64,000 nucleotides of DNA from a virus. Below the pieces are notes generated by a model that was not told the DNA's origin, did no database searches, and was given only the letters and a program-made list of their open reading frames with translations. Shown piece after piece: positions 31,323 to 52,450 of this stretch (positions are counted from its first letter, which is position 1; every line of letters begins with the position of its first letter). The position numbers and the translations under genes are program-made. The stretch lies in IMG/VR virus record IMGVR_UViG_3300033571_022590, positions 1 through 64,000 of that record. One strand, 5' to 3'.

Positions 31323-31325
31323 ATA
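31318..31325 (+). promoter_or_regulatory. exact late promoter TATAAATA before the tail-fibre gene
   Basis: TATAAATA overlapping the stop codon of the preceding gene (GTATAAATATGG). 26 bp separate it from the ATG at 31352, and AGGAACAGGTAA in between supplies the ribosome site. Confidence 0.65.
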
Positions 31326-37277: not shown

Positions 37278-38222
37278 ATGCCCGAGCAAAATTATCTTGA
37301 ACTCAAGTTAGAAAATGATTTATTACTGGAAACCTCAGAGTTTGTGAAGTTTTGTGTGGCTCATCAACAACAACATATTGTGCTACGGGTCAACAACGAA
37401 GCTCACTGTTTAACTTATTGTGGCGTGTATGATATTCTTGATCAGTTTGATTTTGCTTCTGTAACCATAATAACTGCCAATGCCTTGGAACAGCATCCGC
37501 AATACAAAATTGAAAAAAAAGTATGGACGCACTGGCTTCAAAATATTAAAACATTTGATTTTAATTATGATTATGCCTGGAATGAACAGAAACTGTTTGG
37601 GTGTTTTTATGGTAGACCCAGTGCGCCAAGACTGGGTATTGCCACACACTTGGCTCAGCATCATTCCAGCCGATCACTTATACGCACCAAATTTGATTTT
37701 GAACGAGAAGAATCTCGAAAACTTTTTGATTTGCAAAGACTGTTTGCCTGGCAACCAGAAATTATAAATCATTTACATTTGCTGAACAATCAACAATATA
37801 TTGGTGATCAATACTATGATCGCGGTCACTACGATCAAGCCAACACTCTCAGTCACATGTATAAACATTTTTTGATTGACATTGTAGCGGAACCAGTTTG
37901 CGAAGGGCAAAGTTTTTACCCCACTGAAAAAGTTGTACGAGCCATGTTGTGTAAGCGGCCATTTATTGTCATGGCATCACAAAATTATTTGGAATACTTG
38001 CGTCAAATGGGGTTTCATACATTTTTTGAATTTTGGAATGAAGAATACGATGCTTATGATGCCAAGAATCGCTACATGAAAATACTAGATCTGATAGATC
38101 ATTTGGCCAAAAAAACACATGCTGAAATGGTAGATCTTTATTATGCAATGACCTTTCAGCTAGAGCATAATTATAAGTTGATTGTCAGTCAATCTTATAC
38201 CACAAAAATTTTACCAATATAA
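37278..38222 (+). CDS. TEK-motif glycosyltransferase-like protein
   Basis: 314 aa, closest in the window to the gene at 40097. N-terminal half: KLFGCFYGRPSAPRLGIATH (basic GR-x-x-x-x-R-L segment). C-terminal half: IVAEPVCEGQSFYPTEKVVR (TEK at 216-218), KRPFIVMASQNYLEYLRQMG, FHTFFEFWNEEYDAY. The arrangement of a basic mid-segment followed by [ILV]-x-x-E-x...TEK-x-x-[KR]-x...PF[IV]V suggests the donor-binding half of a GT-B enzyme, resembling GT10. Catalytic activity is not proven. It starts 9 bp after the previous gene and ends 1 bp before the RmlB-like gene. Confidence 0.6.
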   Translation: MPEQNYLELKLENDLLLETSEFVKFCVAHQQQHIVLRVNNEAHCLTYCGVYDILDQFDFASVTIITANALEQHPQYKIEKKVWTHWLQNIKTFDFNYDYAWNEQKLFGCFYGRPSAPRLGIATHLAQHHSSRSLIRTKFDFEREESRKLFDLQRLFAWQPEIINHLHLLNNQQYIGDQYYDRGHYDQANTLSHMYKHFLIDIVAEPVCEGQSFYPTEKVVRAMLCKRPFIVMASQNYLEYLRQMGFHTFFEFWNEEYDAYDAKNRYMKILDLIDHLAKKTHAEMVDLYYAMTFQLEHNYKLIVSQSYTTKILPI

Positions 38223-38223
38223 C

Positions 38224-39252
38224 ATGTCCAAACAAGTATTGATCACAGGCGGTGCTGGTTTCATTGCACATCACATGATTGAGCATATCATACAGACCAC
38301 GACCTGGAACGTGATTTGCCTGGATCGTCTTGATTTCAGCGGAAATTTAAATCGTCTGCACGAGATATTAGCAAAATTTTTGCCGCAAGATCAAAGTCGA
38401 GTCAAGATTGTGTATCATGATCTCAAAGCTGAAATTAATTCTATGATTGCGGCCGATATCGGGCAGGTAGACTATGTGTTGCATCTTGCGGCCAGTAGTC
38501 ATGTTGATCGTAGCATATCAAGACCCATGGATTTTGTCATGGACAACGTGGTTGGTACTGTGAATTTGTTGCAGTGGGCCAGAACACAAAACAATTTAGA
38601 AAAATTCATGTATTTCAGCACGGATGAAATTTTTGGTCCTGCACCTGCTGGTGTGGCCTACAAAGAACGAGATAGGTACAACTCTACAAATCCTTATTCA
38701 GCCAGCAAGGCTGCTGGCGAGGAAATGTGTGTGGCTTTTGAAAACACCTATGGCCTACCCATAGTGATCACACATACCATGAATGTGTTTGGTGAGCGGC
38801 AACATCCAGAAAAATTTATTCCACTGTGTGTGCGCAAGGTCCTGGCTGGTGAAACCATCAAGATTCACAGCAACAAGGACCGCACACAAGCTGGTAGCAG
38901 ACACTACATTCATGCCAAGGATGTGGCTGCAGGTGCCATGTTTATTTTAAATGTCAGCCCTGACAATGTAGTTAAAGATTACGGCGGAGCTCGGTGTCCC
39001 AAATTTAATTTGGTAGGTGCTGAAGAAATTGATAATCTTGCTCTGGCTCAATTGGTGGCGCAGTCTGTGGGGAAACCTTTGCATTATGAACTTGTGGATT
39101 TTCACAGCAGTCGCCCAGGGCATGATCTTAGATATGCACTCAACGGTGATTTCATGGCTTCCCTGGGCTGGAAGCCAACAATCAAACTGTCGGATCGCAT
39201 TCAGCAAGTGGTAGCATGGACCCTGCAAAATCCGCAATGGATACAATCATGA
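38224..39252 (+). CDS. RmlB-like NAD-dependent nucleotide-sugar 4,6-dehydratase
   Basis: 342 aa, extended short-chain dehydrogenase. NAD-binding GGAGFIA at residues 9-15; TDE triad STDEIFG (Ser132-Thr133-Asp134-Glu135), diagnostic of 4,6-dehydratases; YSASK with catalytic Tyr158 and Lys162; RHYIHAKDVAAG near the C-terminus. Expected reaction: dTDP- or another NDP-hexose to the 4-keto-6-deoxy sugar. No RmlA-type nucleotidyltransferase is in the window, so the NDP-sugar would come from the host. It could feed the DegT aminotransferase at 57678. ATG 38224 chosen over 38182. ATGA overlap with the first radical SAM gene. Confidence 0.88.
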   Translation: MSKQVLITGGAGFIAHHMIEHIIQTTTWNVICLDRLDFSGNLNRLHEILAKFLPQDQSRVKIVYHDLKAEINSMIAADIGQVDYVLHLAASSHVDRSISRPMDFVMDNVVGTVNLLQWARTQNNLEKFMYFSTDEIFGPAPAGVAYKERDRYNSTNPYSASKAAGEEMCVAFENTYGLPIVITHTMNVFGERQHPEKFIPLCVRKVLAGETIKIHSNKDRTQAGSRHYIHAKDVAAGAMFILNVSPDNVVKDYGGARCPKFNLVGAEEIDNLALAQLVAQSVGKPLHYELVDFHSSRPGHDLRYALNGDFMASLGWKPTIKLSDRIQQVVAWTLQNPQWIQS

Positions 39253-40100
39253 CCAAGCCTGTGTTACCTTTTGTGGAAATCATGGCCACACAGGCCTGCA
39301 ATATCAGTTGTACAGGTTGTACAAATTACAGTGATCTCAATCACAAAGGATGGTTGTCCTGGGAACAAGCTCGAGCACAAATTACGCCATGGCTACAACG
39401 AGTCGACATTCCTGATTTTGGTATTCTTGGTGGAGAACCTTTGTTGAATCCTGAAATACGCGACTGGATCCGTGGCATAAGAGAACTCATGCCCAAGGCA
39501 CAGATAAGATTTACCACAAATGGGTTATTGTTAGACAAGAATCTTGATATCGTTGATTTAGCAGCAGAAGTGGGAAACATTGTTTTTAAAATTGGAGTAC
39601 ACACAGACAGTTTAGCCATTGAACAAACAATTGATTATATTTTAAATAGATTTGATTGGCAACCAGTGACCGAGTTTGGTATCAATCGGTTACTCACTAA
39701 AAACAAATTTAGATTTCAAATAAATCGGCCAACTACTTTTTGGAAAAGTTTTCGAGGTGACTATACAAACATGCAACCTCACAACAGTAATCCAGCCGAG
39801 GCTTTTTCAATTTGTTGCCAGAAGACTTGTCCATTACTATATCAAGGAAAAATATACAAATGCAGCACCAGTGGTTTACTGTTAGATGTGTTAGAAAAAT
39901 TTGGGCACCAAGACAACACCGAGTGGCTTCCGTTTATTAGCCAAGGATTACAGCCAGATTGCACAGATCAACAATTACAAGAATTTTTGAATAATTTTGG
40001 ACGTCCACACAAGATCTGTGGCCAATGTCCAACACAAAAAGATCTGGGCAGTAAAATAGTGCATCTACAAAACGTGCATACCAAAAAAATCAAATCATGA
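39249..40100 (+). CDS. radical SAM protein 1 (short, no N-terminal twitch domain)
   Basis: 283 aa. The 4Fe-4S/SAM motif is at the N-terminus: CNISCTGC (Cys17, Cys21, Cys24), followed by DFGILGGEPLLNPEIRDWI (GGEP SAM-binding motif). The C-terminal half carries CCQKTCPLLYQGKIYKCSTS and KICGQCP, Cys clusters suggesting an auxiliary Fe-S cluster of SPASM/twitch type. Differs from the five others, which have a Cys-rich N-terminal extension. Start ATG 39249 (ATGA) preferred to 39216 and 39237. Substrate unknown; such enzymes often modify peptides or sugars. Confidence 0.85.
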   Translation: MTKPVLPFVEIMATQACNISCTGCTNYSDLNHKGWLSWEQARAQITPWLQRVDIPDFGILGGEPLLNPEIRDWIRGIRELMPKAQIRFTTNGLLLDKNLDIVDLAAEVGNIVFKIGVHTDSLAIEQTIDYILNRFDWQPVTEFGINRLLTKNKFRFQINRPTTFWKSFRGDYTNMQPHNSNPAEAFSICCQKTCPLLYQGKIYKCSTSGLLLDVLEKFGHQDNTEWLPFISQGLQPDCTDQQLQEFLNNFGRPHKICGQCPTQKDLGSKIVHLQNVHTKKIKS

Positions 40101-41146
40101 ACACGTGCTTGCCAATATCTGTACAAACACAAGATCGAAAAATTTATCGTAAAGATAGATTAGTTGCGGCCTTTTTTCAAGCACGAGAACAGAATAAAAA
40201 TTTAGAAATAGATTTTTACCCTGAGGGTAGTTGTGCCACGTCATTGCGATTGTATGAAATTTTGGATGAACTTTGTGAAAAATACAATTTTGATAAATCA
40301 CGAATCACAATCAAAACTGCCAATCTTTTAGAACAACATGATCACTACCGTATAGTTTGTGTTCCTAGTTACTGGTATGAGATTCGGGAAATCCAGGCCT
40401 GGGTGACCAAGAATTCCATAGATACTGGAATTATGCCCACGCGGCATTTTGGTTGCTTTGTGAGTAGAAGTACCTGGTCCAGACTATGGGTTTCCACGTA
40501 TCTTAACAAACATCACGCAGATAAAACTTTGCAAACTTATCACTATGATCGTACCAGACAAAACTACAATGGCAACGGCTATGTGGGTCTTGATGATCTT
40601 TTTCAGTTTGGTTGCAATATCATACCTGACTGTGCAAATTTTTTGACCACGTGTCCTAGAACCATTGATCTTGATTTTTTAAAAACGTATAAAAATGCAA
40701 AATCGTTATTTCAGCACGGCGACAGTTACTATCCAATTCAAGTACCTGCCAACATGAATTTGCTGAACTACTATCATGACATATTTGTAGACATTGTTAC
40801 AGAACCAAATGTCATGGGCACAAACTTTTTAGTCACTGAAAAACTTTGGAGATGCATTGTGGCCAGGAGACCTTTTATTGTGCTTGGTACTGCAAACTAT
40901 TTGCATAATTTGAGAAAGTTGGGATTTGACACTTTTTATCAGTACTGGGACGAGAGTTATGATGGACAAATTGGACAAACCAGAATTGGTCATATGCTAG
41001 AAGTTATTGACAGGTTGGCGACTTGGGATACTGAACAATGCAGTCAGACACTCAACCGCATGCAACCCATACTTGATCATAATTTACAAGTTTTTAAATC
41101 GCTTGATTACAACAAACTTGCCAAGGTATTTGACATCAATGACTGA
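40097..41146 (+). CDS. TEK-motif glycosyltransferase-like protein
   Basis: 349 aa, close paralog of the gene at 37278: RHFGCFVSRSTWSRLWVSTY matches its KLFGCFYGRPSAPRLGIATH. The C-terminal signature is DIVTEPNVMGTNFLVTEKLW (TEK at 247-249, here TEKLWR exactly as in GT10 fucosyltransferases), then RRPFIVLGTANYLHNLRKLG and FDTFYQYWDESYDG. ATGA-coupled to radical SAM 1 and overlapping radical SAM 2 by 8 bp. Each TEK gene in this operon precedes a radical SAM gene. Confidence 0.62.
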   Translation: MNTCLPISVQTQDRKIYRKDRLVAAFFQAREQNKNLEIDFYPEGSCATSLRLYEILDELCEKYNFDKSRITIKTANLLEQHDHYRIVCVPSYWYEIREIQAWVTKNSIDTGIMPTRHFGCFVSRSTWSRLWVSTYLNKHHADKTLQTYHYDRTRQNYNGNGYVGLDDLFQFGCNIIPDCANFLTTCPRTIDLDFLKTYKNAKSLFQHGDSYYPIQVPANMNLLNYYHDIFVDIVTEPNVMGTNFLVTEKLWRCIVARRPFIVLGTANYLHNLRKLGFDTFYQYWDESYDGQIGQTRIGHMLEVIDRLATWDTEQCSQTLNRMQPILDHNLQVFKSLDYNKLAKVFDIND

Positions 41147-42533
41147 TAAATCAGATTTTTACTCAGCCGCCGAACACATGCGTGATGTGCTAGGCAAAGG
41201 CATGTGCCTGGCCAAGTGGAAACAGGTAAGCCTGCACTTGCCTACCGGACTCAATAATTCATGTTATCACCCACCTTTGCATGAAATACCAGCTGATTTG
41301 TTGACTTCCAATCCCAGTGCCTTGCACAACACTCCTTACAAAAAACAGCAAAGACAGATCATGCTACGTCAAGAACGTCCGCAAGAATGCAGTTATTGTT
41401 GGGCCATGGAAGACAACGGCAAACTCAGTGACAGACATTATAGAAGTGGTGAGCCTTGGGCTGCCAAAGATTTTGATACGATCATAAATTCCACAGGAGA
41501 TGAAGATGTTTTACCTAGTTATGTTGAAGTCAATTTTAATCATGCTTGTAATCTTAAATGTAGTTACTGTAGTCCACAATTCAGTTCAACCTGGCAGCAA
41601 GAAGTGGATCAGCTTGGCGCTTATCCTACTAGCACTCAACACAATGATCCTGATTATTTTAGGGGTCGCCGTAAGCCTATTCCTGTTCGCGAACATAATC
41701 CATACGTAGAAGCCTTTTGGCAGTGGTGGCCTACTTTGTATCCAGAGTTAGAACATTTTAGAATGACTGGTGGTGAGCCGCTCATGGACCGGAATACCTA
41801 TCGTGTGTTTGATTATGTGCTAGAGAATCCTAGCAAAAAATTGCATCTAAATGTGACCAGTAATTTCACTGTGGAAGAAAATTTGTGGAAAAAATACAAA
41901 GACTATGTGCGAAGGCTGTGTGACACTGATGATGTCAAACTGGAACACTTCATGCAGTATGTCAGTCTTGATGCCTGGGGCGCACAGGCCGAATACATCA
42001 GACACGGTCTAGATTTTGAATTGTTGTGGGATCGAGTCAATCAATACCTGGAAGAAATACCTTATAGAAACAGTTTGACATTTATAGTGACCATGAACAA
42101 TTTGAGTGTAACCACACTGGCAAATTTGTTTGCTGGCATCCTTGGGTTAAGACAAACCTACAGCAAAACCTATCAACGTGTATGGTTTGACACACCAGTA
42201 TTGCGTCAACCAGAGTGGCAAAGTCTACAGATTCTACCTGAAAGTTATGCTGAAAAATTAGAACACTTGTGGGCCTGGATGATTCGACAAACAGAACGTC
42301 CTGAAGATCCATTTCACGGTTTCAAGGATTATGAAATTGCCCGGCTGGATCGAGACATAGCCTGGATGCGTAGTGGTCAGAACCTGGACCCTGCAGTATT
42401 ACAGTCCAGAAAAGCTGACTTTTACAGATTTTTCAACGAACATGATCGCAGGCGCGGCACTGACTTTTTGAAGACTTTTCCTGACATGGCCTCTTGGTGG
42501 AAGGAGTGCGAATATCATGCTAGGCAATCATAA
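41139..42533 (+). CDS. radical SAM protein 2 (twitch-type, HPP subfamily)
   Basis: 464 aa. N-terminal Cys/His domain: GLNNSCYHPPLHEI and ECSYCWAMED, likely ligands of an extra cluster. Radical SAM core: NHACNLKCSYC (Cys137, Cys141, Cys144), FRMTGGEPLMDRNTY, then TIM-barrel strands LHLNVTSN and MQYVSLDAWGAQAEYIRHG. The C-terminus FYRFFNEHDRRRGTDFLKTF recurs in radical SAM 3, its nearest relative. ATG 41139 gives a short overlap with the preceding stop; an in-frame start at 41007 would overlap by 140 bp. Function unknown. Confidence 0.85.
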   Translation: MTDKSDFYSAAEHMRDVLGKGMCLAKWKQVSLHLPTGLNNSCYHPPLHEIPADLLTSNPSALHNTPYKKQQRQIMLRQERPQECSYCWAMEDNGKLSDRHYRSGEPWAAKDFDTIINSTGDEDVLPSYVEVNFNHACNLKCSYCSPQFSSTWQQEVDQLGAYPTSTQHNDPDYFRGRRKPIPVREHNPYVEAFWQWWPTLYPELEHFRMTGGEPLMDRNTYRVFDYVLENPSKKLHLNVTSNFTVEENLWKKYKDYVRRLCDTDDVKLEHFMQYVSLDAWGAQAEYIRHGLDFELLWDRVNQYLEEIPYRNSLTFIVTMNNLSVTTLANLFAGILGLRQTYSKTYQRVWFDTPVLRQPEWQSLQILPESYAEKLEHLWAWMIRQTERPEDPFHGFKDYEIARLDRDIAWMRSGQNLDPAVLQSRKADFYRFFNEHDRRRGTDFLKTFPDMASWWKECEYHARQS

Positions 42534-43629
42534 AGTGGTTGTTGACGAGTGGGCTGAAGTCTGGGACCTACTACGGCCTTATGCAGATGCAAGTTTTTGG
42601 CGTTGGGAAGACGTACCGCTTGATCCAGATACCATATATGTTGTGGGACGAGTGGTACTCAAACAAAATTGGATCAGTATTACTGAGTGGGCAAAGCGTC
42701 ATCCTGGTAAGATAATTTTTAGTAATCCAGCCGAAGGTAGTCAAACCATACTGTTACAGTTACAACGCATGCGCATTGTTGATTTGGTAAAAAATGGTTC
42801 GATAGGTTTGTTGACTTCAGGAGATCTTGAACCAGGCTGGAAATATTGTCAAACCGACTGTTACTTTTCCAATATTGTAGAATATTTAGAAAACATAGAT
42901 GCCCACACATATTCAAGTCAGGTTAGAGAAAAAATTCAAAAACCTTATAATTTTTTGATGCTGAATGGTCGACTACGGCCACATCGTAAGGCCTTGATCG
43001 ACGCACTGCGTGAAAAAAATTTATTGGATCGGGCCCTATGGACCAATCTTGGCAGCAGAGTTGAAATGGAGTTTACCAGTCAACTGCAAACCAACAAATT
43101 AGAATCCATAAGATTGTTGCCGCCCGAATACGAAATTGAGCGTGCAAGGCCCAATCTAACTGCCAGCATGTACACTGACGGTGGATTTGTCAAACACCAA
43201 TTATTCAATAATACCTGGGGCGATGCCATTGTAAATCCACAGGCCTATATTGACACCTATTTTAGTCTAGTTACGGAAACCATATTTGATTATCCTTACA
43301 CTTTTAGAACAGAAAAAATTTGGAAACCCATGATCATGCAACACCCCTTTGTGGTGGCGGCCAACACAGGTTATTATCGAGATTTGCGAAAAGCTGGGTT
43401 CCGTACTTTTGATCATTTAATTGATGAAAGTTTTGATCAAATTGACAACAGTGCCGACAGAATTTCGCGTATAATACAAGTTGTTGATGCAATAATTTCT
43501 AATGGTGCAGATGAATTCTTAAAAGCCAGTGAAGATGTATGTAAATATAACTATCTGCACCTGCGCGAACACAATCAACGTGAGCGTGATCAATTGCCTA
43601 TGAAATTAACCCAGTATATCAATGAATGA
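42517..43629 (+). CDS. TEK-motif glycosyltransferase-like protein
   Basis: 370 aa, the most complete intact model for the split pair at 927-1999. Mid-segment NFLMLNGRLRPHRKALIDAL then EKNLLDRALWTN; C-terminal LVTETIFDYPYTFRTEKIWK (TEK at 265-267), HPFVVAANTGYYRDLRKAGF, RTFDHLIDESFDQ. The phrase TE-x-FDYPY is shared with the split gene (VVETVFDYPYPY), so these two are closest relatives although 40 kb apart. Overlaps radical SAM 2 by 17 bp and radical SAM 3 by 8 bp. Confidence 0.62.
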   Translation: MLGNHKVVVDEWAEVWDLLRPYADASFWRWEDVPLDPDTIYVVGRVVLKQNWISITEWAKRHPGKIIFSNPAEGSQTILLQLQRMRIVDLVKNGSIGLLTSGDLEPGWKYCQTDCYFSNIVEYLENIDAHTYSSQVREKIQKPYNFLMLNGRLRPHRKALIDALREKNLLDRALWTNLGSRVEMEFTSQLQTNKLESIRLLPPEYEIERARPNLTASMYTDGGFVKHQLFNNTWGDAIVNPQAYIDTYFSLVTETIFDYPYTFRTEKIWKPMIMQHPFVVAANTGYYRDLRKAGFRTFDHLIDESFDQIDNSADRISRIIQVVDAIISNGADEFLKASEDVCKYNYLHLREHNQRERDQLPMKLTQYINE

Positions 43630-44962
43630 TTTAGAATTTCGTCGTCAAGTATTGGACACTAAAAGTGCCAGCTTTTGTGCGGCCAAATGGTACAATGCCA
43701 CCATATGGTTGGGCTCAGGTCAGACCACTAGTTGCCATCATCCACCAGCACACACTATTGGAGAAGAGTTTCGAATCAACCCGCGGGCAATTCATAACAC
43801 TGCTCAAAAAAAAGAAGATCGTCGCATGATGTTGGCTGGTGAAAGACCACCTGGATGCGAGTACTGCTGGAAGATCGAAGACATGGGCGTGGATGCTGTG
43901 AGTGATCGTGTGTACAAAAGCAAAATTTATCCTATCGAGGCCCTGGATCAAGCATTTGGCACACCGGTCGAAGCCGACGTGAATCTTCGCACGCTGGAAA
44001 TTGCTTTCGATCGCACTTGTCAATTTGCCTGCTCGTACTGTAATCCAGCGTTCAGTAGCACCTGGGTCAAGGACATCAAGAACAACGGAGCCTATGAAAA
44101 TTTAATCAGCGACGGGCGCAATCATTTTACACACGAACACGACAGTGCTCAACTCTATCGCTTTGGCGAAACCAATCCCTATGTTGAAGCCTTTTTTGCC
44201 TGGTGGGAAACAGACCTGCATCGTACTTTGCAAGAATTAAGAATCACTGGCGGTGAACCAACCATGAGTGGCGAGCTATGGAAGTTGATTGATTGGTTCA
44301 AAGACAATCAAGGCAAGAGCCAAACACGCTTGGCCATCAACTCAAATCTGGGCATGGATCGTCTCCGGTTGTTGGACTTTATCAAACGTGTGGAAGGTAT
44401 TCCGCACCTGGAAATTTACACCAGCATGGAAGCCACTGATGCTCAAGCCGAATACATCAGAGATGGTCTGGATTACGATCTATGGATGCACAATGTACAA
44501 GAATTGTTGGAACACGATGACATACGTGCTGTGCATTGTATGTGTACTATCAACGCCCTGTGCCTGGACAGCCTACCAGATCTGCTGGATCAATTGATGC
44601 GACTCAAACAGGTTTATACCCGTGAGCGTGTGAACTTTACATTGAACATATTGAGATTCCCCAGCTTCCAGAGTGCCCTGGTCCTGCCAGATGCCATACG
44701 TACACAGTACAGACACAATCTTGAAACCTGGTTGAAACTCAATCAAGCCAATCCCTTGTTGCACGAGCATGAAATCAATCACATGCAGAGATTGATCGAC
44801 TATCTTGATGTGGTCAAGACCCCGCACAGTGACACATTTGAAATGCCAAAACTGCACAACGATTTTAAAAAATTCTATCAACAATATGATCAACGACGCA
44901 ACAAAAACTTTGTTGATACTTTTCCTAACCTAGCCGATTGGTTCAATGACATACCAGTATAA
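43622..44962 (+). CDS. radical SAM protein 3 (twitch-type, HPP subfamily)
   Basis: 446 aa, paralog of radical SAM 2. N-terminal TTSCHHPPAHTI and GCEYCWKIED; core motif CQFACSYC (Cys133, Cys137, Cys140); LRITGGEPTMSGELW; LAINSNLG; LEIYTSMEATDAQAEYIRDG; C-terminal FYQQYDQRRNKNFVDTFP. All SAM and Fe-S residues are present. Tandem paralogs with conserved N-terminal clusters suggest sequential modification of one substrate class. That is an inference. Overlaps both neighbours. Confidence 0.85.
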   Translation: MNDLEFRRQVLDTKSASFCAAKWYNATIWLGSGQTTSCHHPPAHTIGEEFRINPRAIHNTAQKKEDRRMMLAGERPPGCEYCWKIEDMGVDAVSDRVYKSKIYPIEALDQAFGTPVEADVNLRTLEIAFDRTCQFACSYCNPAFSSTWVKDIKNNGAYENLISDGRNHFTHEHDSAQLYRFGETNPYVEAFFAWWETDLHRTLQELRITGGEPTMSGELWKLIDWFKDNQGKSQTRLAINSNLGMDRLRLLDFIKRVEGIPHLEIYTSMEATDAQAEYIRDGLDYDLWMHNVQELLEHDDIRAVHCMCTINALCLDSLPDLLDQLMRLKQVYTRERVNFTLNILRFPSFQSALVLPDAIRTQYRHNLETWLKLNQANPLLHEHEINHMQRLIDYLDVVKTPHSDTFEMPKLHNDFKKFYQQYDQRRNKNFVDTFPNLADWFNDIPV

Positions 44963-46205
44963 CAGTGCAGACCTAGTCAAGCCGGTAGAGCTGACTGAAC
45001 GTGAAGAATTTTTACTAAAAGATAGTAAAACATTCTGCATCTATCCTTGGATACACTTGCATGCCTATCCCACAGGTGAAGCCTATCCTTGTTGCCATGC
45101 TGAAATGAAACCCGGGGTTGTAGGAAACTGTCGCGAAAAAACCCTGGCAGAGATATGGGTTGACGAACCCATGCAACGACTACGCAAAGACATGCTGACA
45201 GAAACACCCAACCCGGCATGCACAAGATGTTATGAACAAGAACAAGCCGGATTCTTCAGTGGCAGAAAAAGTGCCAACAAGCATCACGGACACCATATCA
45301 AGAAGTTGGAATCAAATCCATTTGAGATGACCTACTGGGACATACGATTCAGTAACTTGTGCAATCTCAGTTGTCGTAGTTGCGGGCATATTTTCAGTAG
45401 TAGTTGGTACCAAGATCAAGCTGTGCTGGCTGGCCCTGAATGGAAGAGCAACAATAAGCCTTTGAACTATGCTGGACGTACCGAAACCGACATCTGGGAA
45501 CAATTGATTCCGCATCTTGATCATGTGGAACAGATTTACTTTGCCGGTGGCGAACCGCTCATGATGGAAGAGCATTACAACATTCTTGAGGAACTAGAAC
45601 GCCGTGGCAGGTTTGATGTGCGTTTGATTTACAACACCAACTTCACACACGTCAAGCTCAAAGATCGCTGGGTGTTTGATTATTGGAAAAAGTTTAAATC
45701 AGTGGCAGTGGGTGCCAGCTTGGATGCCATGGGTCTGCGTGCCGAATACATTAGGAAAGGCACAGTATGGAAGACGGTTGAAAACAATCGACGCCAGATG
45801 CTGTTGGAATGTCCACATGTGGACTTTTATATCAGCCCCACCCTCAGTATATTAAATGCCTGGCACCTGCCCGATTTCCATCGTGACTGGAGCGAAAAAG
45901 GTCTGATCAGACCACAGGATCTCAACGTGAACATACTGCAAGACCCGGCCTACTATCGCATAGATATCGCACCTACGGAATACAAACAGAAGTTGCGTAA
46001 AAAGTTTGAAGAACATCTGGCATGGTTACAATCACAAGACATGTTGAATCGTGCCAGCGTGGGATTTGAAAGTGCCATAAACTTCTTGATGAACACTGAC
46101 AACACTGCACTGATACCCAAGTTTTGGGACAAGACCAATCAACTTGATAGCATACGCAATGAAAATCTATTGCGAGTCATTCCTGAACTTGAGGCTCTTA
46201 AATGA
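44946..46205 (+). CDS. radical SAM protein 4 (twitch-type, CxxPW subfamily)
   Basis: 419 aa. The N-terminal domain differs from proteins 2 and 3: FCIYPWIHLHAYPTGEAYPC, CHAEMKPG and ACTRCYEQEQAG. Core: DIRFSNLCNLSCRSCG (Cys139, Cys143, Cys146), IYFAGGEPLMMEEHYNIL, LIYNTNFT, VGASLDAMGLRAEYIRKG. CxxPW...PCC is the pattern of the twitch/SPASM-type radical SAM proteins known from many T4-like phages, function unknown. Overlaps radical SAM 3 by 17 bp and radical SAM 5 by ATGA. Confidence 0.85.
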   Translation: MTYQYNSADLVKPVELTEREEFLLKDSKTFCIYPWIHLHAYPTGEAYPCCHAEMKPGVVGNCREKTLAEIWVDEPMQRLRKDMLTETPNPACTRCYEQEQAGFFSGRKSANKHHGHHIKKLESNPFEMTYWDIRFSNLCNLSCRSCGHIFSSSWYQDQAVLAGPEWKSNNKPLNYAGRTETDIWEQLIPHLDHVEQIYFAGGEPLMMEEHYNILEELERRGRFDVRLIYNTNFTHVKLKDRWVFDYWKKFKSVAVGASLDAMGLRAEYIRKGTVWKTVENNRRQMLLECPHVDFYISPTLSILNAWHLPDFHRDWSEKGLIRPQDLNVNILQDPAYYRIDIAPTEYKQKLRKKFEEHLAWLQSQDMLNRASVGFESAINFLMNTDNTALIPKFWDKTNQLDSIRNENLLRVIPELEALK

Positions 46206-47422
46206 ACTTGCCACACGATCAATTTTGTGTATTACCTTGGATCAGCTTAGAAGCCAGTCCCATTGGCACTGTGAGACCTTGTTGTTTAGCTGACGACGAA
46301 ATTGTAGATGAACAAGGCGAAAAATTCAATTTGTCTTCAGCCAACTTTGGAAGCATACAATCTAGTCGTCACATGACACAGCTCAGACAAGATTTCTTGT
46401 CGGGTAAAAAACCACAAACTTGTAGAAAGTGTTGGAACGAAGAACGTGCTGGTCGTACCAGCAAACGCATGCACACTCTTGACAGACTCAAACATATTTT
46501 GCCCGATCAGGAGTGGACGCAGGATGCCAAACCCTTGATGTTCTTGGATCTCAAATTGGGCAATATCTGTAATTTGAAATGTAGAATTTGTGGCTCCTGG
46601 AGCTCCAGTCAATTTGCCACAGAAGAATTGGCTGACATGCCTTTGGAAACCGACAAAAAAACTACCTTTCCCTATCAAATGTTGCGTGCGGGATCATGGC
46701 CCAGAGACAACAAACAATTTTGGCAACAAATTGACCAGCACCTACACGATATTAGGTACATTGAATTCACTGGTGGTGAACCATTCATGATTCAAGAACA
46801 CTTTGACATGTTGCAAGGCATAGTAGATCGCGGCATTGCGCATCAAGTGGAAATACACTACAACACCAATGGCACTCAATGGCCCGAACAGGCCGAACAA
46901 ATATGGCAACATTTTCGCACAGTGGAAATTGCATTCAGCATCGATGACATTGGTGAAAGATTTGAATATCAACGTAGCAACGCTGTCTGGACTGAAGTAT
47001 GTGCGAATCTTGAAAAATTCAACAAGTTAAAACAGCGACATTCAAATATTGTGCTACAAATTTGTACCACAGTGAATGTTTTCAACATACGGTATCTTGA
47101 TCAAGTGGCTGCTTGGATTGACTCTCATAAAGAAAATTTTAACTTTGTGTACTGGAATATCATGCATGATGCCTGGTATTTCAGTATTTCTACCTTGCCA
47201 GACACAGTGAAAAAATCCTTGACAGAATACTTGACGTCTGTTGCGATACCAGAACAGTACAAATCAGAAATTCAAGGCATAATTGAATTTATGAATCGTG
47301 GTGCTTCCACAGATGGATTCATGTTAAAATTAAAAATAAAAGATCTAGATCGCAAGCGCGGTCAAAATCTTGCTCTAGTAGAGCCAGAGTTTGCTCAATT
47401 GATTGACTATGCCGGCCCCTAA
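46202..47422 (+). CDS. radical SAM protein 5 (twitch-type, CxxPW subfamily)
   Basis: 406 aa. N-terminal FCVLPWISLEASPIGTVRPC, CLADDE and TCRKCWNEERAG; core ICNLKCRICG (Cys123, Cys127, Cys130); IEFTGGEPFMIQEHFDML; IHYNTNGTQWPEQ; VEIAFSIDDIGERFEYQRS. All cluster ligands kept. The SxDxxGxRxEYxR strand, shared with proteins 4 and 6, likely lines the SAM pocket. Middle gene of three tandem CxxPW paralogs, ATGA-coupled to the first and overlapping the third by 14 bp. Confidence 0.85.
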   Translation: MNLPHDQFCVLPWISLEASPIGTVRPCCLADDEIVDEQGEKFNLSSANFGSIQSSRHMTQLRQDFLSGKKPQTCRKCWNEERAGRTSKRMHTLDRLKHILPDQEWTQDAKPLMFLDLKLGNICNLKCRICGSWSSSQFATEELADMPLETDKKTTFPYQMLRAGSWPRDNKQFWQQIDQHLHDIRYIEFTGGEPFMIQEHFDMLQGIVDRGIAHQVEIHYNTNGTQWPEQAEQIWQHFRTVEIAFSIDDIGERFEYQRSNAVWTEVCANLEKFNKLKQRHSNIVLQICTTVNVFNIRYLDQVAAWIDSHKENFNFVYWNIMHDAWYFSISTLPDTVKKSLTEYLTSVAIPEQYKSEIQGIIEFMNRGASTDGFMLKLKIKDLDRKRGQNLALVEPEFAQLIDYAGP

Positions 47423-48716
47423 GCAAAGACCTGAAACCCTGTGCATGGCTCCGTGGACGCATACCTATCTTAGTCCACAGACCGAACGGCGCATGTGTTG
47501 TGCCAGCCGAGAACCTGCGCAAAACTTTGAGCAGTACATAGACACGTCCTCAGGCACAGGCGAATATAGTCCCGTGGCTCTTGATGAACACTGGAATAGT
47601 GAACACATGAGAAGTGTGCGACTGCGTATGATGCGTGGGGAAACCCTGCCCGAATGTGAAGTATGCAACAACAAGTTATTGAACACTGATGTATATCGAG
47701 ACTATTTCAATAGACTGTTCGAGCACAAGTATGAGGAATGCATGCGTGCTACGGATCGCTATGGATTTACCAAGGTGCGCCCTGTGAGCTGGGATTATAG
47801 ATTCAGTAACCTATGTAATTTTAAATGCAGAATGTGTGGAGACATGTTGAGCTCTAGCTGGGAAACTGAACAGCGTCAACATGACATGATTGACTGGTCA
47901 GATAAAAAAAATACCTGGATGCGTCCTGAGGTTCGTGAACGTATTTCACTCTATCAAGACACGCAAATTGAACATGAATTTGCACTGGCTGTGGAACAAC
48001 ATCGAGTAGAAGAAGTGTATTGGGTCGGTGGTGAGCCACTCATGTATGAACAGCACTGGCGTTATATGCGTCGTATCATCGAACTAGGCGATGGTCCTCG
48101 AGTGTATGCCAGATACAACACAAATCTCAGCAGGATAGACTACAAAGGAACAAATCTTTACACAGACATTTTGGCACACATACGTGATTGGCAGATATGT
48201 GCCAGTCTGGATGGGACTGGAGCCACCGGTGAATACATTAGAACAGGCTTAAACTCTGAATCCTGGTTGGCAAATTTTGTGCAAGGTCGTCGGCTGGCCT
48301 CTCATCGCAGGCAAATGCGTATAGACTTTACTTTGACTTTGCCAGGACTTTTCCAAGTCGAGAACATAAACAGTCTTGCACAAAGTCTAGATGTAGATGT
48401 TCTAGCCAAGGTTGTTTTCAGTTTTACACCAGACATTATCATGAGTCCTTTGGCCTTGCCTAGACAGTTATTAGACGATACAGTAGACCGTTTGGCGGAT
48501 CGTATACCAGCCGGTGCCTTGAAGGATGTGTTGTTACAGCTCAAACAGCGACCTACATTTGCGGAACAATGGCCCACTGAGTGGCAGGCTGGACTTGCAA
48601 AAGGCAAGCGTCGTGTGTTAAAATTAGAACAAATACGTGGTGATACCTATACCATGGCAGATATACTCAGACCCAATCAGGAAATATATGACTGGTACCA
48701 AGCAATCGCTACTTGA
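47409..48716 (+). CDS. radical SAM protein 6 (twitch-type, CxxPW subfamily)
   Basis: 435 aa. N-terminal LCMAPWTHTYLSPQTERRMC, CASREP and CEVCNNKLL; core FSNLCNFKCRMCG (Cys136, Cys140, Cys143); VYWVGGEPLMYEQHWRYM; ARYNTNLSRI; ICASLDGTGATGEYIRTG. Start ATG 47409; the TTG two codons upstream is less likely. Last of the six radical SAM genes. It overlaps the next gene by 29 bp. Confidence 0.85.
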   Translation: MPAPKQRPETLCMAPWTHTYLSPQTERRMCCASREPAQNFEQYIDTSSGTGEYSPVALDEHWNSEHMRSVRLRMMRGETLPECEVCNNKLLNTDVYRDYFNRLFEHKYEECMRATDRYGFTKVRPVSWDYRFSNLCNFKCRMCGDMLSSSWETEQRQHDMIDWSDKKNTWMRPEVRERISLYQDTQIEHEFALAVEQHRVEEVYWVGGEPLMYEQHWRYMRRIIELGDGPRVYARYNTNLSRIDYKGTNLYTDILAHIRDWQICASLDGTGATGEYIRTGLNSESWLANFVQGRRLASHRRQMRIDFTLTLPGLFQVENINSLAQSLDVDVLAKVVFSFTPDIIMSPLALPRQLLDDTVDRLADRIPAGALKDVLLQLKQRPTFAEQWPTEWQAGLAKGKRRVLKLEQIRGDTYTMADILRPNQEIYDWYQAIAT

Positions 48717-49743
48717 TGTTGTAGAAATAGATCTAGGTACCGCAGAAGATCGTTTGCGTGTGTATGCCAACATCTATGACAACAGTCTCAGTCGCAAATG
48801 GCTAGCGGCCTTGAATGATTTGCTGATCAATCAATACCACCTGGAAAAGAACTACTGTTTTTTTGGATTTGCCGATGGTCCCAGGAACGGACCTTATCTG
48901 TTAGAACAAATCAATAACAGTATACAAGCTATTAACAAGTCCGGTATAGGCTATCACATTGACGATTATTTTGATATGGCCAACAGTGTGGATGAGTCAG
49001 ACGATGTTGATCACAATCATTTCAATCAACTACACAGATACTTTGAAGACTTGCAAGGCGGCAGTGGCCACATCAGTGATTACTACTGGCAAGCTGACAA
49101 CGCCACACGTTGGCATATTAGACAACTGAACTTGTTGTGCCATGAATTTGAAAGTTGGCAACTGAGCTGGCGGAAAAAACACACGGCACCGATGTGGCAA
49201 CGACCCAGCCAACTCATGTGCTGGCTGAGTGCGCCACGTTTTGTTTTAGATGAAGCGGATTACGAACTGTTTGGCATAGAAACAATAAATCGTAGCCTGG
49301 GCGGAGTATATGTAGGCGTCAACAAAGCAGTTGGCAAACATCACTGGGAAGTGTTTCAGGATGAAGGCCGCGACAGCAGGATAGGCGAGCTGACTACTAC
49401 CAGCCTTAAAGCTCAAACTGAAGCCGCTGGAGACTTTGACATAGAGTGGGCCAACAATCCAGGCACATTTCCTTGGCAGATAAAACAACTAAAAGAGTTT
49501 CGCGAATGGCTAACGGTCAATGGCTTTGATCCCGAAGATCGTAGCTTGACCATTGGACATCCGCAGGTGGGACAAGTGGATTTAATCCGCAGTTTTGGCT
49601 CGGAAGATTATCAAGAGATTTGGGCGCAGTTAAATACTCATTTAAATGTGCATGCTATTCGCACCAGCACTGCACGTGCCACTTATGAATATTTGTGGTC
49701 TGACCCAGACTACATGCAACAACAACTGAGGAACATGAAATGA
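48688..49743 (+). CDS. protein of unknown function downstream of the radical SAM genes
   Basis: 351 aa, not recognised. Acidic N-terminus (LLDVVEIDLGTAEDRLRVYA), FFGFADGPRNGPYLLEQINN, an Asp/His-rich stretch (DDYFDMANSVDESDDVDHNH), then GVYVGVNKAVGKHHWEVFQD, GRDSRIGELTTTSLKAQTEA and FDIEWANNPGTFPWQI. Many Trp and His residues, no Cys motif, no membrane segment. The start at ATG 48688 has AGGAA 5 nt upstream. Position in the operon suggests a partner or acceptor-handling protein for the radical SAM enzymes. That is only context. Confidence 0.6.
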   Translation: MTGTKQSLLDVVEIDLGTAEDRLRVYANIYDNSLSRKWLAALNDLLINQYHLEKNYCFFGFADGPRNGPYLLEQINNSIQAINKSGIGYHIDDYFDMANSVDESDDVDHNHFNQLHRYFEDLQGGSGHISDYYWQADNATRWHIRQLNLLCHEFESWQLSWRKKHTAPMWQRPSQLMCWLSAPRFVLDEADYELFGIETINRSLGGVYVGVNKAVGKHHWEVFQDEGRDSRIGELTTTSLKAQTEAAGDFDIEWANNPGTFPWQIKQLKEFREWLTVNGFDPEDRSLTIGHPQVGQVDLIRSFGSEDYQEIWAQLNTHLNVHAIRTSTARATYEYLWSDPDYMQQQLRNMK

Positions 49744-49841
49744 AATGGATTCGTAATCTCATCGAACGTATACGTCTTGAAATACGCTATAGAAAAAAAC
49801 TAAAAGAACTACGCAAACGCGATCCGTTCATTTATAAATGA
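49740..49841 (+). CDS. 33-aa highly basic conserved phage peptide
   Basis: 34 codons including stop, starting in an ATGA overlap and ending in another. The peptide begins MKWIRNLIERIRLEIRYRKK and ends KRDPFIYK. It is an amphipathic Arg/Lys-rich helix. I recall a very similar peptide next to a DUF1289 gene in T4-like cyanophages, which argues that it is real and is not specific to this cluster. It could bind nucleic acid or membrane. Function unknown. Confidence 0.6.
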   Translation: MKWIRNLIERIRLEIRYRKKLKELRKRDPFIYK

Positions 49842-49996
49842 TCACTCCTTGTGTAAACATCTGTATCATGACCAATGGCGTGTGCGAAGGGTGTGGTCGC
49901 ACCATTGATGAAATTGCAGAGTGGACCTTGTATACCGATCAAGAGCGGCTGACAATCATGCAAAGACTAGGACATGAGCAACATACTGGGAATTAG
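49838..49996 (+). CDS. DUF1289-type small Cys-rich protein
   Basis: 52 aa: TPCVNICIM then VCEGCGRTIDEIAEW then RLTIMQRLG. The spacing Pro-Cys-x3-Cys...Cys-x2-Cys-Gly-Arg-Thr-x2-Glu-Ile-x2-Trp is the DUF1289 signature, four Cys likely holding Zn or an Fe-S cluster. ATGA-coupled to the 33-aa gene and overlapping the carbamoyltransferase by 23 bp. Proteins of this family are common in proteobacteria and phages without a defined role. Confidence 0.8.
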   Translation: MITPCVNICIMTNGVCEGCGRTIDEIAEWTLYTDQERLTIMQRLGHEQHTGN

Positions 49997-51428
49997 TGCT
50001 GGATTTCATGATGCTGCTGTTACAGTAATTGATCGCCATGGCGACATACTGTTTGCTGCACACAGTGAGCGTTTTAGCAAGAAAAAAAATGATGCCAATC
50101 TGCATCCTAATCTCATGATGGACGCTATGCATTACGGTGATATCAATCACATTGCGTACTATGAACGTCCCTGGCTAAAACAATTACGTAGACTACGAAG
50201 TGGCGAAGGCATACAGTGGGATCAACTCACTGTCAAACAAATATTAACAAAACAACTGGGGTCAGCTGTGTGGCCTCAAATAAGCACTCACAATCATCAC
50301 CTGTGCCATGCGGCTGCAGGTTTTCAAACCAGCCCATATGATCGTGCCACATGTGTGGTCATAGATGCCATTGGCGAATTTGACACAGTTTCAATCTGGG
50401 GAGCAGAATATGATAGTAAAAATCAAGCAAAGTATAAGAAACTTTGGAGCCAGAGTTACCCGAGGAGCATCGGGCTCTTTTATAGTGCAATTACTCAGCG
50501 AGTTGGCCTACACCCGCTAGATGAGGAATACATCACCATGGGCATGTCCGCTTGGGGTCAGCCACGATATGTAGCGGAATGTCGCGCCCTGTTGGCGGAT
50601 AACCTGCACATAGGCATAGACCCCAACTGGTTGCCTGACGCAGTCAATGAAGACATAGCTGCATCAGCACAGATTTTAACAGAAGAATTGATATATACGA
50701 TTATACGTCGTGCTAAGGATTTTGATTGGAGCACCAATCTGGTGTACCAAGGCGGCGTGGCTTTGAACTGTCTTGCTAATAGAAAACTCGGTGAATATTT
50801 TGAAAACATTTGGATCATGCCTGCTCCTGGCGATAGTGGCAATAGTCTTGGCGCTGCCGCATTGGCCCACGGAAAACGTTTACGCTGGAGGCATGCGTTT
50901 CTTGGCCACGAAATCCCAGGAGAATATCCTGTTGGCGCCGTCGTTGATCATCTACTATCAAATCAGATCGCTGGAGTTGCTAGTGGACGAGCCGAGTTTG
51001 GACCTCGAGCCCTGGGAAACCGAAGCCTCCTCGCCGACCCCCGAGGAATACATATAAAGGATCAAGTCAATGCGATCAAACGCCGCCAAAAGTTTAGACC
51101 ATTTGCGCCAGTTATCCTCTCAGAGCATGTGGATGAATTTTTTGATATGCCCCGGGGTTGGAGTAGCAGTCCTTATATGCAGTCAATCGCAACTTGTCGC
51201 CGTCCTGACTTATTTCCTGCTATCTGTCATGTGGACAACACTAGCCGAGTACAGACTGTTGCGGCTGACGGCTCAGGCATTAGACGTCTCTTAGAGGCCT
51301 GGTATGCACGCACAGGCTGTCCCATGTTGCTGAACACCAGCTTGAACATACGCGGTGAACCCATGGTCAATGATCGTCGAGATGCAGATAGATTCGAACA
51401 ACTATACGGTGTGAAAGTTTTTAGTTAA
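49974..51428 (+). CDS. NodU/CmcH/TobZ-family O-carbamoyltransferase
   Basis: 484 aa. N-terminal Kae1-like domain: ILGISAGFHDAAVTVID, then NHHLCHAAAGF (His-x3-His metal site) and VVIDAIGEFDTVS. Then YQGGVALNCLANRKLGE, MPAPGDSGNSLGAAALAHG, and the C-terminal signature GRAEFGPRALGNRSLLADPR with FRPFAPVIL and LNTSLNIRGEPMV. The family makes carbamoyl-adenylate from carbamoyl phosphate and ATP and transfers carbamoyl to a hydroxyl of a sugar, antibiotic or nodulation factor. Slightly shorter than bacterial members (about 550-570 aa). Last gene of the plus operon; its stop overlaps the stop of the convergent amidinotransferase. Confidence 0.92.
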   Translation: MSNILGISAGFHDAAVTVIDRHGDILFAAHSERFSKKKNDANLHPNLMMDAMHYGDINHIAYYERPWLKQLRRLRSGEGIQWDQLTVKQILTKQLGSAVWPQISTHNHHLCHAAAGFQTSPYDRATCVVIDAIGEFDTVSIWGAEYDSKNQAKYKKLWSQSYPRSIGLFYSAITQRVGLHPLDEEYITMGMSAWGQPRYVAECRALLADNLHIGIDPNWLPDAVNEDIAASAQILTEELIYTIIRRAKDFDWSTNLVYQGGVALNCLANRKLGEYFENIWIMPAPGDSGNSLGAAALAHGKRLRWRHAFLGHEIPGEYPVGAVVDHLLSNQIAGVASGRAEFGPRALGNRSLLADPRGIHIKDQVNAIKRRQKFRPFAPVILSEHVDEFFDMPRGWSSSPYMQSIATCRRPDLFPAICHVDNTSRVQTVAADGSGIRRLLEAWYARTGCPMLLNTSLNIRGEPMVNDRRDADRFEQLYGVKVFS

Positions 51429-52450
51429 AGATAAGTTTCAAGACCGCCACGTCTGCGTAAATCCTGAGTGCAACAACTTATGCCACCATCCCAAAAATAA
51501 CTGTGACGCAGTTCTGAAATAATAGGGTTGATTCGGTGACGTTTGCAGTAATCAAATACTTCGCGATTGTAGGCACTGAATATCACATTTTCTTCATCTA
51601 GCACAAGACAGTTGACATCAAACACCGTTTCAGCCACAAAGCCAGTCCACTTGTTCAAATAGGTGTCTACAAATTGAGTGAACTCAGGTGTGGGAGTTTG
51701 TCCTTGCACATACCAGGCCCCAGGATTTGATTCGTATTTGAACTTGCCTACCTCCATGGCGGCCCAAATTGAACTATCCCAGATTTTACATATATCCCAG
51801 CCAGGAAAATCTCTGGCAAGATCAAGATTAACATCGTGCTTGCTGCTCAACAACACGCCTGGCTTGAGAATAGCAAACACGGCATCGCCGTGACCATCTG
51901 TGACAGCTTCGTGTATTCTATACTCTGGCCCCAGCACATTGTCCACAATCCAGCGTGTTTGTTCTGGCTTCAAGAAATCACTGTTGTCAAAAAACACATC
52001 ACGGCCCACACGCACAATACACGAAGCCGACGCACCATTCAAGATACAATCTGGATCCCAAGCACTGCGATGTGGGTTAACCACCGATTCTGAAAACTTG
52101 GTGCAGACCTTGTCCAGTTCTGGCACTGCCAACACACGCAACAAACGATCACCTAGAGTAATTTGCCAATCTCTGGGAGTCAAGGGCGGTAGTGGAGCTC
52201 CCCCGCCTTCGGTTTGAAACCACACAAATTCATCTTTGTTAGGCAGTTCAGGTCTGTGAACCAGGGCACCATACTGTTCAATTGTACGTTGCAGATTGTC
52301 AAGATCTTCCTGGGTTTCAGCCAGGATCTGTTGTAGTTGACAGCGTACCTGAGCATTGTCAATGAAATCAAAGTAATCGGGCGTGTAAGCACGACCCACA
52401 ATGACTTCTTCAAGTGGTTGCCACGAGGTGTATGAATTAACTTTGGCCAT
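51425..52450 (-). CDS. amidinotransferase (glycine/inosamine amidinotransferase family)
   Basis: 341 aa, pentein fold. SYTSWQPLEEVIVGRAYTP, CIVRVGRDVFFDNSDF, TDGHGDAVFAILKPGVLLSS (catalytic His region) and C-terminal DGGISCCTQDLRRRGG. The last aligns with GGFHCWTCDVRRRG of animal glycine amidinotransferase, placing the nucleophile at Cys326 and showing Ser instead of His at 325. The usual Ala-Asp-Phe before RxGRD is not evident (SASC here), so activity should be checked. Such enzymes move the amidino group of arginine to an amine, for example in streptomycin (StrB). Overlaps the upstream TEK gene by 14 bp; converges on the carbamoyltransferase. Confidence 0.82.
   Translation of the reverse strand: MAKVNSYTSWQPLEEVIVGRAYTPDYFDFIDNAQVRCQLQQILAETQEDLDNLQRTIEQYGALVHRPELPNKDEFVWFQTEGGGAPLPPLTPRDWQITLGDRLLRVLAVPELDKVCTKFSESVVNPHRSAWDPDCILNGASASCIVRVGRDVFFDNSDFLKPEQTRWIVDNVLGPEYRIHEAVTDGHGDAVFAILKPGVLLSSKHDVNLDLARDFPGWDICKIWDSSIWAAMEVGKFKYESNPGAWYVQGQTPTPEFTQFVDTYLNKWTGFVAETVFDVNCLVLDEENVIFSAYNREVFDYCKRHRINPIISELRHSYFWDGGISCCTQDLRRRGGLETYL

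Follow-up and report, generated by a model that had tools for sequence, protein, structure and literature searches.

T4-like phages rich in radical S-adenosylmethionine (SAM) enzymes were described in 2010 and 2017, and such gene sets are known, though unexplained. In the T4-like, virulent Campylobacter phages CP220 and CPt10, a cluster comprises five radical SAM genes along with a putative glycine amidinotransferase, and the two Campylobacter clusters are reported to be unrelated in sequence and interchangeable (PMC2853527). In T4-like pelagimyophages, a hypervariable host-recognition cluster is described as comprising tail-fibre genes, glycosyltransferases and radical SAM cassettes, with the freshwater genomes of the same study stated to have no radical SAM proteins (PMC7029224). 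The T4-like ocean virus TARA_ERS488813_N000010 is reported to encode twelve radical SAM genes and an A-type Fe-S carrier (PMC5332604). Here, we analyse an island within a 64-kb stretch of viral DNA (positions 1 to 64,000 of the 75,291-base IMG/VR record IMGVR_UViG_3300033571_022590; hereafter the window), in which five radical SAM genes (rS41, rS43, rS44, rS46 and rS47), a conserved gene of unknown function (H48) and a carbamoyltransferase gene (Carb49) make up the conserved unit. With moderate confidence, we propose that this unit belongs to the glycan-building part of a host-recognition island of a T4-like jumbo phage, whose product would reside on the virion or on the surface of the infected cell.

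Five radical SAM genes in one order

A sequence-only reading of the window had reported six radical SAM genes with CxxxCxxC and GGEP motifs, and both motifs are indeed present in the plus-strand genes starting at 39249, 41139, 43622, 44946, 46202 and 47409. Five of these are members of NF033640, the NCBIfam model for twitch domain-containing radical SAM proteins (cut-off 170 bits over the whole protein): rS41 (41139..42533; 322 bits), rS43 (43622..44962; 305 bits), rS44 (44946..46205; 393 bits), rS46 (46202..47422; 334 bits) and rS47 (47409..48716; 280 bits), with E-values from 4e-83 to 2e-117. The remaining one, rS39 (39249..40100), is short, lacks the N-terminal twitch and has a Cys-rich C-terminus. 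It reached 32 bits against NF033640, with the barrel part alone being matched, and passed the Pfam Radical_SAM cut-off (E = 9e-13); by these matches, rS39 is likewise a radical SAM protein, though its type differs from that of the five core enzymes. None of 14 control genomes contained an NF033640 member.

Near relatives were collected by scanning viral contigs with rS44. The best 80 of 214 relatives, whose best segments all share at least 75% identity with the query and which hence understate the diversity, were grouped at 97% rS44 identity into 58 clusters, the genome of the window itself (L009) being one of them. Presence was called from bit scores at thresholds of our choosing on simple open reading frame picks, and several loci end at contig ends, which makes the misses upper bounds. 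Apart from rS44 itself, the query of the scan (58/58), rS41, rS43 and rS46 were each found in 57 clusters and rS47 in 55; all five were present in 54 of the 58, always in one order and on one strand (54/54). The homologues are thus not scattered, in keeping with the joint system envisaged in the sequence-only reading, albeit with five rather than six conserved members: an rS39-like gene (at least 100 bits) occurred in 4 of the 58 clusters, marking it as accessory. Whole records exceeded the NF033640 cut-off in all 45 cases searched among the 80 (5-21 matches each at E ≤ 0.001). Among 50,697 phage records, three matched rS44 or rS46 by sequence, none was a nucleotide relative of the window, and none gave a tblastn match to H48, G36 or T40. 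The locus may hence be called exceptional, as it had been, with respect to those records, whereas in this contig group it is the rule, and radical-SAM-rich phages had been described before. Taken together, the NF033640 E-values and the conservation exclude chance.

The Cys ligands proved equally stable. In near relatives, the three Cys of the SAM cluster and the four of the twitch domain were invariant in every core paralogue (54-60 rows each, leaving out 0-4 rows per paralogue with <40% identity). In distant loci (see below), where Cys were scored by motif, they were retained in 17/17 rS41, 20/22 rS43, 23/23 rS44, 22/22 rS46 and 23/23 rS47 sequences. An extra late Cys was also invariant among near relatives of four paralogues (rS41 C261, rS44 C289, rS46 C288, rS47 C264); these residues do not share one aligned position and are possible catalytic residues or additional ligands.

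In a tree of 86 proteins, built by a quick method and representing the core genes by 12 of the 58 clusters plus the window, each core orthogroup was separated from the rest of the tree by a single branch (SH-aLRT support 99-100), which argues for five separate specialists as opposed to recent tandem copies. Several additional rows and those of Vibrio phage K566 formed long branches whose placement is unsure.

For more distant relatives, the query was an H48 protein from a contig of a metagenome-assembled genome (MAG), 39% identical to H48 of the window. This yielded 44 loci with H48 proteins 34-73% identical to the query (33 after clustering), each spanning at most ~21 kb, so that presence counts are lower bounds. 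All five radical SAM genes were seen in 18 loci, in the same order in all 18. Where the flanks sufficed, rS47 and Carb49 (at least 100 bits) were both present in 20 of 27 loci and both missing from the other seven, and 18 of 22 distant records searched exceeded the NF033640 cut-off. The 33 clusters further contained homologues of the sugar short-chain dehydrogenase/reductase (SDR58; 16 clusters) and aminotransferase (DegT57; 15) genes located downstream of the core, and any match to the TEK family introduced below in 17. The conserved unit is therefore the five radical SAM genes plus H48 and the carbamoyltransferase gene; pairing with T42 and its TEK relatives is common near this phage yet dispensable, and rS39, the RmlB-like gene, T37 and T40 are accessory.

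This arrangement bears on whether the island might simply be a hot spot that collects metabolic genes lacking a joint pathway, as the strong variation of the slots between core genes could suggest. Five orthogroups in a single order in 54/54 near and 18/18 distant loci largely refute such unlinked cargo, and the mostly abutting genes and the co-presence or co-absence of rS47 and Carb49 in 27/27 loci likewise oppose it; we consider it extremely improbable. Within the window, eleven same-strand genes abut or overlap between 37278 and 49743, with neighbours from 37268 onwards overlapping by 4-29 nt or lying 1-9 nt apart. The contiguity ascribed to all junctions in the sequence-only reading thus holds up to H48 and ends before Carb49 (start 49974), which is separated from the preceding gene by 230 nt.

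Glycosyltransferases, group transferases and exchangeable slots

The plus-strand gene T42 (42517..43629; 55/58 near clusters) lies between rS41 and rS43 and belongs to the TEK family. For its product, an AlphaFold2 (AF2) model with a pLDDT of 94 was compared to known structures by VIA, and the 50 matches listed were all glycosyltransferases or sugar synthases matched over the whole length (Z 11.0-12.8), which we take to be GT-B enzymes. The leading rows were all tied and included an alpha1,3-fucosyltransferase (2nzx; Z 12.8, root-mean-square deviation (rmsd) 4.0 over 265 residues) and T4 beta-glucosyltransferase (1j39; Z 12.6, rmsd 4.2 over 273 residues), while Foldseek alone returned no match at E ≤ 0.001. 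Judged from the model, T42 has a GT-B glycosyltransferase fold. An assignment of the TEK family to GT10 fucosyltransferases was rejected, there being no sequence membership and 2nzx heading the fold list by a tie alone.

The proximity of T42 to 1j39 could be taken to indicate that modified sugars are made and attached to the phage's own bases in the manner of T4, the more so as base-modification systems are known or predicted to include carbamoyltransferases as well as radical SAM enzymes. However, the Z values are ties of a common fold, and a PF00303 protein (the family that includes thymidylate synthase and dCMP/dUMP hydroxymethylase) was found in none of 11 large records, possibly fragments, as compared to 9 of 14 control genomes. 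T4-type hydroxymethylated DNA is hence unlikely, and we regard DNA hypermodification as very improbable.

Further TEK genes are less widespread. On the plus strand, T37 (37278..38222; 13/58 near clusters) and T40 (40097..41146; 10/58) precede radical SAM genes, and the three TEK genes at 37278, 40097 and 42517 are positioned as the sequence-only reading had it, including an RmlB-like gene intervening between 37278 and 39249. This gene (38224..39252, plus strand, between T37 and rS39) encodes a putative nucleoside diphosphate (NDP)-sugar 4,6-dehydratase (TIGR01181, 244 bits, under the cut-off of 365; GDP_Man_Dehyd, 9e-50) and is an accessory present in one of the 58 clusters, namely the window's own genome. 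On the minus strand follow T52 (52437..53630; 33/58) and T53 (53614..54711; 27/58), and a short TEK-family protein, T0, matches the TEK profile far from the island (927..1457, minus strand). Five TEK proteins had no Pfam match over cut-off and no PHROG match, T53 showing one S6PP match below cut-off; three of them searched against NCBIfam gave a single chance-level match, and a six-member TEK profile had no sequence match in the PDB.

Both group transferases flanking the core are recognizable. Carb49 (49974..51428, plus strand; 49/58; phrog_1601) is a NodU/CmcH-type carbamoyltransferase that exceeds the Pfam cut-offs of Carbam_trans_C (2e-47) and Carbam_trans_N (3e-36) and stays under that of the NodU equivalog. 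Amid51 (51425..52450, minus strand; 35/58) had no Pfam or NCBIfam match; it aligned with PDB 2jdx in three stretches (whole-protein E = 9e-14), including a C-terminal Cys motif (GGGFHCWTCD / GGISCCTQD) that we presume to hold the functional Cys. Its sequence thus identifies Amid51 as a relative of L-Arg:Gly amidinotransferase, within the L-Arg:X amidinotransferases.

Upstream of T37, four plus-strand genes extend the island. G34 (34489..35292; at least 100 bits in 46/58 near clusters) and G35 (35279..36031; phrog_1903, of unknown function; at least 150 bits in 48/58) are 26% identical to each other and, going by motifs, putative GT-A/GT8-like glycosyltransferases; G34 has no match in Pfam, PHROG or NCBIfam, and carries a DAD motif and a C-terminal H..K, which we assume to have their usual GT8 meaning. 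G36 (36330..37268; 55/58) is a probable glycosyltransferase-like protein with a DGD motif. Between G35 and G36 lies S36 (36028..36369), a small conserved protein of 113 aa with a tblastn match in 59 of 102 loci and no NCBIfam match, which is a possible substrate or accessory factor. Many S36 copies carry a GT.CHP-like motif.

Comparison of loci revealed where genes are exchanged. The slot between G36 and rS41 was filled in 45 of 55 loci, that between rS46 and rS47 in 26 of 55 and that between rS44 and rS46 in 19 of 57, while four other core junctions were filled in 4-6 of 49-57 loci. Among the 197 slot genes, 57 matched a TEK profile and 18 had radical SAM motifs. Pfam, run on 139 of the 197, returned Radical_SAM (17), nucleotide-sugar dehydratases/epimerases of the SDR type (9), DUF6071 (8), DegT (3), AMP-binding enzymes (3), GDSL hydrolases (3), and single matches to a UDP-sugar dehydrogenase (UGD), a GHMP kinase and a methyltransferase. 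Slot content, the T42 fold, Amid51 and Carb49 together argue that the surroundings of the core point to sugars. The pathway with sugar enzymes that had been proposed from the letters of the window gains from this: the neighbourhood is conserved in many phage contigs, T42 has a predicted glycosyltransferase fold, and sugar-nucleotide enzymes as well as a carbamoyl- and an amidinotransferase are linked to it, although TEK proteins are not its fixed partners.

H48 (48688..49743, plus strand; 52/58 near clusters) is the remaining member of the conserved unit. Its AF2 model (pLDDT 86) gave a best Foldseek E-value of 0.23 and mainly cyclophilins by VIA (1j2a; Z 8.6, rmsd 3.6 over 138 residues), a hint at a cyclophilin-like barrel that is hardly above the common level and may have missed other folds. 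In bacterial and archaeal genomes, relatives of H48 were found on two MAG contigs alone (9 and 22 kb, with names that point to a marine source), which may be either phage or bacterial; neither showed a core radical SAM gene in the stretches examined, which leaves no bacterial operon to borrow a function from. Nine distant loci (L103-L110 and L116) carry H48 and no core radical SAM or carbamoyltransferase gene in their stretch, and the records of two of these with H48 alone, L105 and L108, have an NF033640 member elsewhere. The occurrence of H48 in the absence of these neighbours makes a role of its own probable.

S36 and H48 might also be read as signs of peptide or protein maturation, in which the five enzymes would act on side chains of a phage protein, for instance a tail fibre, that the glycosyltransferases may then decorate. 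Twitch/SPASM radical SAM enzymes frequently modify peptides, peptide maturase models were weakly matched in profile searches (every score far below cut-off), a small conserved protein is encoded inside the island, and cyclophilins, which H48 weakly resembles, act on peptides. Then again, no precursor peptide was recognised, S36 being the single candidate noticed with no systematic search made, the slot partners are largely sugar enzymes, and in 7 of 27 distant loci H48 stands without a radical SAM gene beside it. We consider such maturation improbable; the product may still be a glycopeptide.

Some of the genes further downstream would supply sugar precursors. A DegT/PseC-type sugar aminotransferase (57678..58781, minus strand; Pfam 6e-55; PseC 2e-34, under cut-off) and a putative NDP-sugar SDR dehydratase/epimerase (58708..59694, minus strand; TIGR01181 2e-37, under cut-off) are followed by a weak candidate for an FkbM-like methyltransferase (60620..61270, minus strand; TIGR01444 7e-4, below cut-off). 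Between T53 and the aminotransferase gene, R54 (54710..57706, plus strand) encodes a repeat protein found in 18/58 near and 21/33 distant clusters. Inspection by eye revealed several repeats of the PYIYVFGNQW...PGATE.KYM type in R54, and its profile weakly matches G36.

Genomic setting and proposed function of the island

At 100% identity, the 75,291-base record corresponds to bases 4957-80247 of G001, a record of 236,309 bases whose genes were likewise simple open reading frame picks. PHROG matches of G001 include phrog_10646 (2e-275), phrog_219 (5e-24) and phrog_168 (2e-75), which we take to be T4-type functions: the 1231-aa protein encoded at 11653 of the window is the baseplate wedge subunit (phrog_10646), and another G001 gene encodes the clamp loader (2e-75). 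On the grounds of these baseplate wedge and clamp loader matches, with capsid and terminase not identified, G001 is a T4-like myovirus. In 20 of 20 records, the baseplate gene and rS44 share a strand, and the former precedes the latter by 28.6-33.6 kb, distances that were compiled by hand from separate record scans. A single reading frame of 5065 aa spans 15348-30545 (plus strand) in this virion gene region, and frames of 4774-5027 aa directly follow the baseplate gene in seven other records.

Radical SAM proteins are numerous throughout these genomes. Each of the 11 large records examined had 10-19 Pfam radical SAM matches (E ≤ 0.001), and 10 of 17 records, including G001, encode an A-type Fe-S carrier (PF01521), which fits a heavy demand for Fe-S clusters. 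In G001, the carrier gene lies at 178106-178408 (minus strand). Outside the island, G001 has one further NF033640 member, and one or more of its radical SAM proteins are of the B12-binding type, with scores below the model cut-offs. Ten TEK matches were counted in G001 in total, as were three more Amid51-profile matches (119, 32 and 22 bits at 84733, 108874 and 217396).

The last late-promoter-like signal upstream of the island is the T4-type TATAAATA (31318..31325, plus strand) before a tail-fibre-type gene at 31352. ATAAATA, which we take to be the core of T4 late promoters and here presumably acts as such, occurs in the window at 3956, 11216, 11625, 30551 and 31319, with four sites intergenic and the fifth overlapping the last bases of a gene. 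Of 21 sites in G001, 14 are wholly and 3 partly non-coding and 4 lie in genes, in a genome that is 4.8% non-coding. No ATAAATA is present between the site at 31318 of the window and position 69053 of G001, so that none falls inside the island, and no other late-promoter motif of the island's own was seen. Late read-through from the tail-fibre transcript would therefore be plausible. Neither Sigma-70-like sites (49 vs 42 ± 7 in shuffles) nor terminator-like structures (21 vs 18 ± 5) were in excess in the window.

In the glycan-building pathway that we propose, the RmlB-like, DegT and SDR enzymes would make amino- or deoxy-sugars, and each N-twitch radical SAM enzyme would perform one C-H-breaking step, such as a dehydrogenation, deoxygenation or epimerisation, either on such a sugar or on the glycoconjugate as it is built. 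Capping of hydroxyl or amino groups may fall to the carbamoyl- and amidinotransferase, and joining of the units to the glycosyltransferases of the GT8-like and TEK (GT-B) types. The fixed core would then specify a common part of the product and the exchangeable slots its diversification, with the finished product being displayed on virion tail fibres or the surface of the infected cell. Gene identities, core order, Cys conservation, the T42 fold, slot content and the position downstream of tail genes are direct observations; the sugar substrate, the order of steps, late expression and the location of the product are what we infer from them.

A special case, contained in this proposal and in its likelihood, is that the host surface is the sole target: lipopolysaccharide O-chains or the capsule would be rebuilt during infection, excluding competing phages or aiding release, and the virion would be left unmodified. 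O-chain modification has been proposed for pelagimyophage host-recognition clusters (PMC7029224), and variable slots would fit an arms race. Yet the enzymes present do not tell this case from glycosylation of the virion, and a virion target agrees at least equally well with the proximity to tail genes and with the lack of late-promoter motifs inside the island; we see host-surface remodelling alone as possible, if unlikely. A more specific version of the glycan proposal, which we offer as a rather doubtful conjecture, is a hitherto undescribed glycan, a carbamoylated, guanidino-bearing amino sugar or cyclitol, assembled by aminoglycoside-pathway logic with five radical SAM enzymes and exposed by either the tail of the virion or the infected cell, with the slots serving as a fast-changing surface code across widespread jumbo myoviruses. 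In favour of the glycan proposal as a whole, the N-terminal part of a profile of the six radical SAM proteins weakly matched the end of the cyclitol enzyme BtrN (E = 6e-4).

Several observations weigh against the glycan proposal. The best solved-structure match of the same profile was an unnamed radical SAM protein and its other matches act on peptides, lipids or nucleotides; no radical SAM protein of the island passed a model of known substrate, and NF033640 names no function. T42 was present in 6 of 19 distant loci that show both its neighbours and Amid51 in 6 of 33 distant clusters, arguing that neither is essential to the core product, and 7 of 23 distant clusters with the radical SAM core had no TEK gene in their stretch. 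This also weakens the notion of TEK and radical SAM proteins as a functional pair, put forward in the sequence-only reading, the fixed partners being H48 and Carb49. The T4-like late promoter signal is apparent from placement alone and not from count, since the motifs are no more frequent in the window than in shuffles (TATAAATA, 2 vs 1.6; ATAAATA, 5 vs 9.0), and the attachment of the product to virion or cell is a proposal.

Radical SAM enzymes are demanding and oxygen-sensitive, and this phage group, of which we know no cultured member despite its wide distribution, keeps five of them in fixed order. Identification of the product would reveal a role of radical SAM enzymes in viruses along with a source of new sugar chemistry, and would account for much of what is unexplained in the regions that these phages devote to host recognition.

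Comparison with other radical-SAM-rich phages

A conserved five-gene core of this kind was not found described in full-text searches of open-licence literature, and the described clusters resemble the island to different degrees. In pelagimyophages, the radical SAM cassettes differ between two genomes, and the accessible part of their description mentions no conserved five-gene core (PMC7029224). TARA_ERS488813_N000010, going by its description, resembles the island phages in its many radical SAM genes and its Fe-S carrier.

Vibrio phages K566 and K567 (OZ196521, OZ196593) come closer. In K566, the one of the two examined, four radical SAM genes are interleaved with a pair of GT8 genes and one weak GT4-like gene, and the radical SAM proteins match the core profiles distantly, at 73-101 bits. 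In contrast to this likeness, identity is ~23%, gene order and neighbours differ, and 29 kb of K566 had no profile match to TEK, H48, Carb49 or Amid51. With a K566 radical SAM enzyme as the query, nothing was retrieved from viral contigs.

The closest counterpart in composition is the CP220 cluster. Its radical SAM proteins are shorter than those of the island and fall below the NF033640 cut-off (best 31 bits), those examined (CPT_0080, 0081, 0083, 0084 and 0087) gave no match to the core profiles at E ≤ 10 with filters on, and no carbamoyltransferase is annotated in the cluster. In addition, the Campylobacter clusters are interchangeable, whereas the five orthogroups of the island are fixed. 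Nevertheless, five radical SAM proteins, an amidinotransferase and NDP-sugar transferases are combined in both, the latter being represented by G34 and G35, as judged by motif, in the island and by two nucleotide-diphospho-sugar transferase-domain genes at the cluster end in CP220, and the CP220 amidinotransferase shares its PHROG with Amid51 (phrog_25854). That two or more unrelated radical SAM sets occur in the same combination argues that radical SAM chemistry, sugar transfer and amidino transfer work together. With the Vibrio and Campylobacter cases, the island suggests that radical SAM enzymes and glycosyltransferases came together more than once among T4-like phages.

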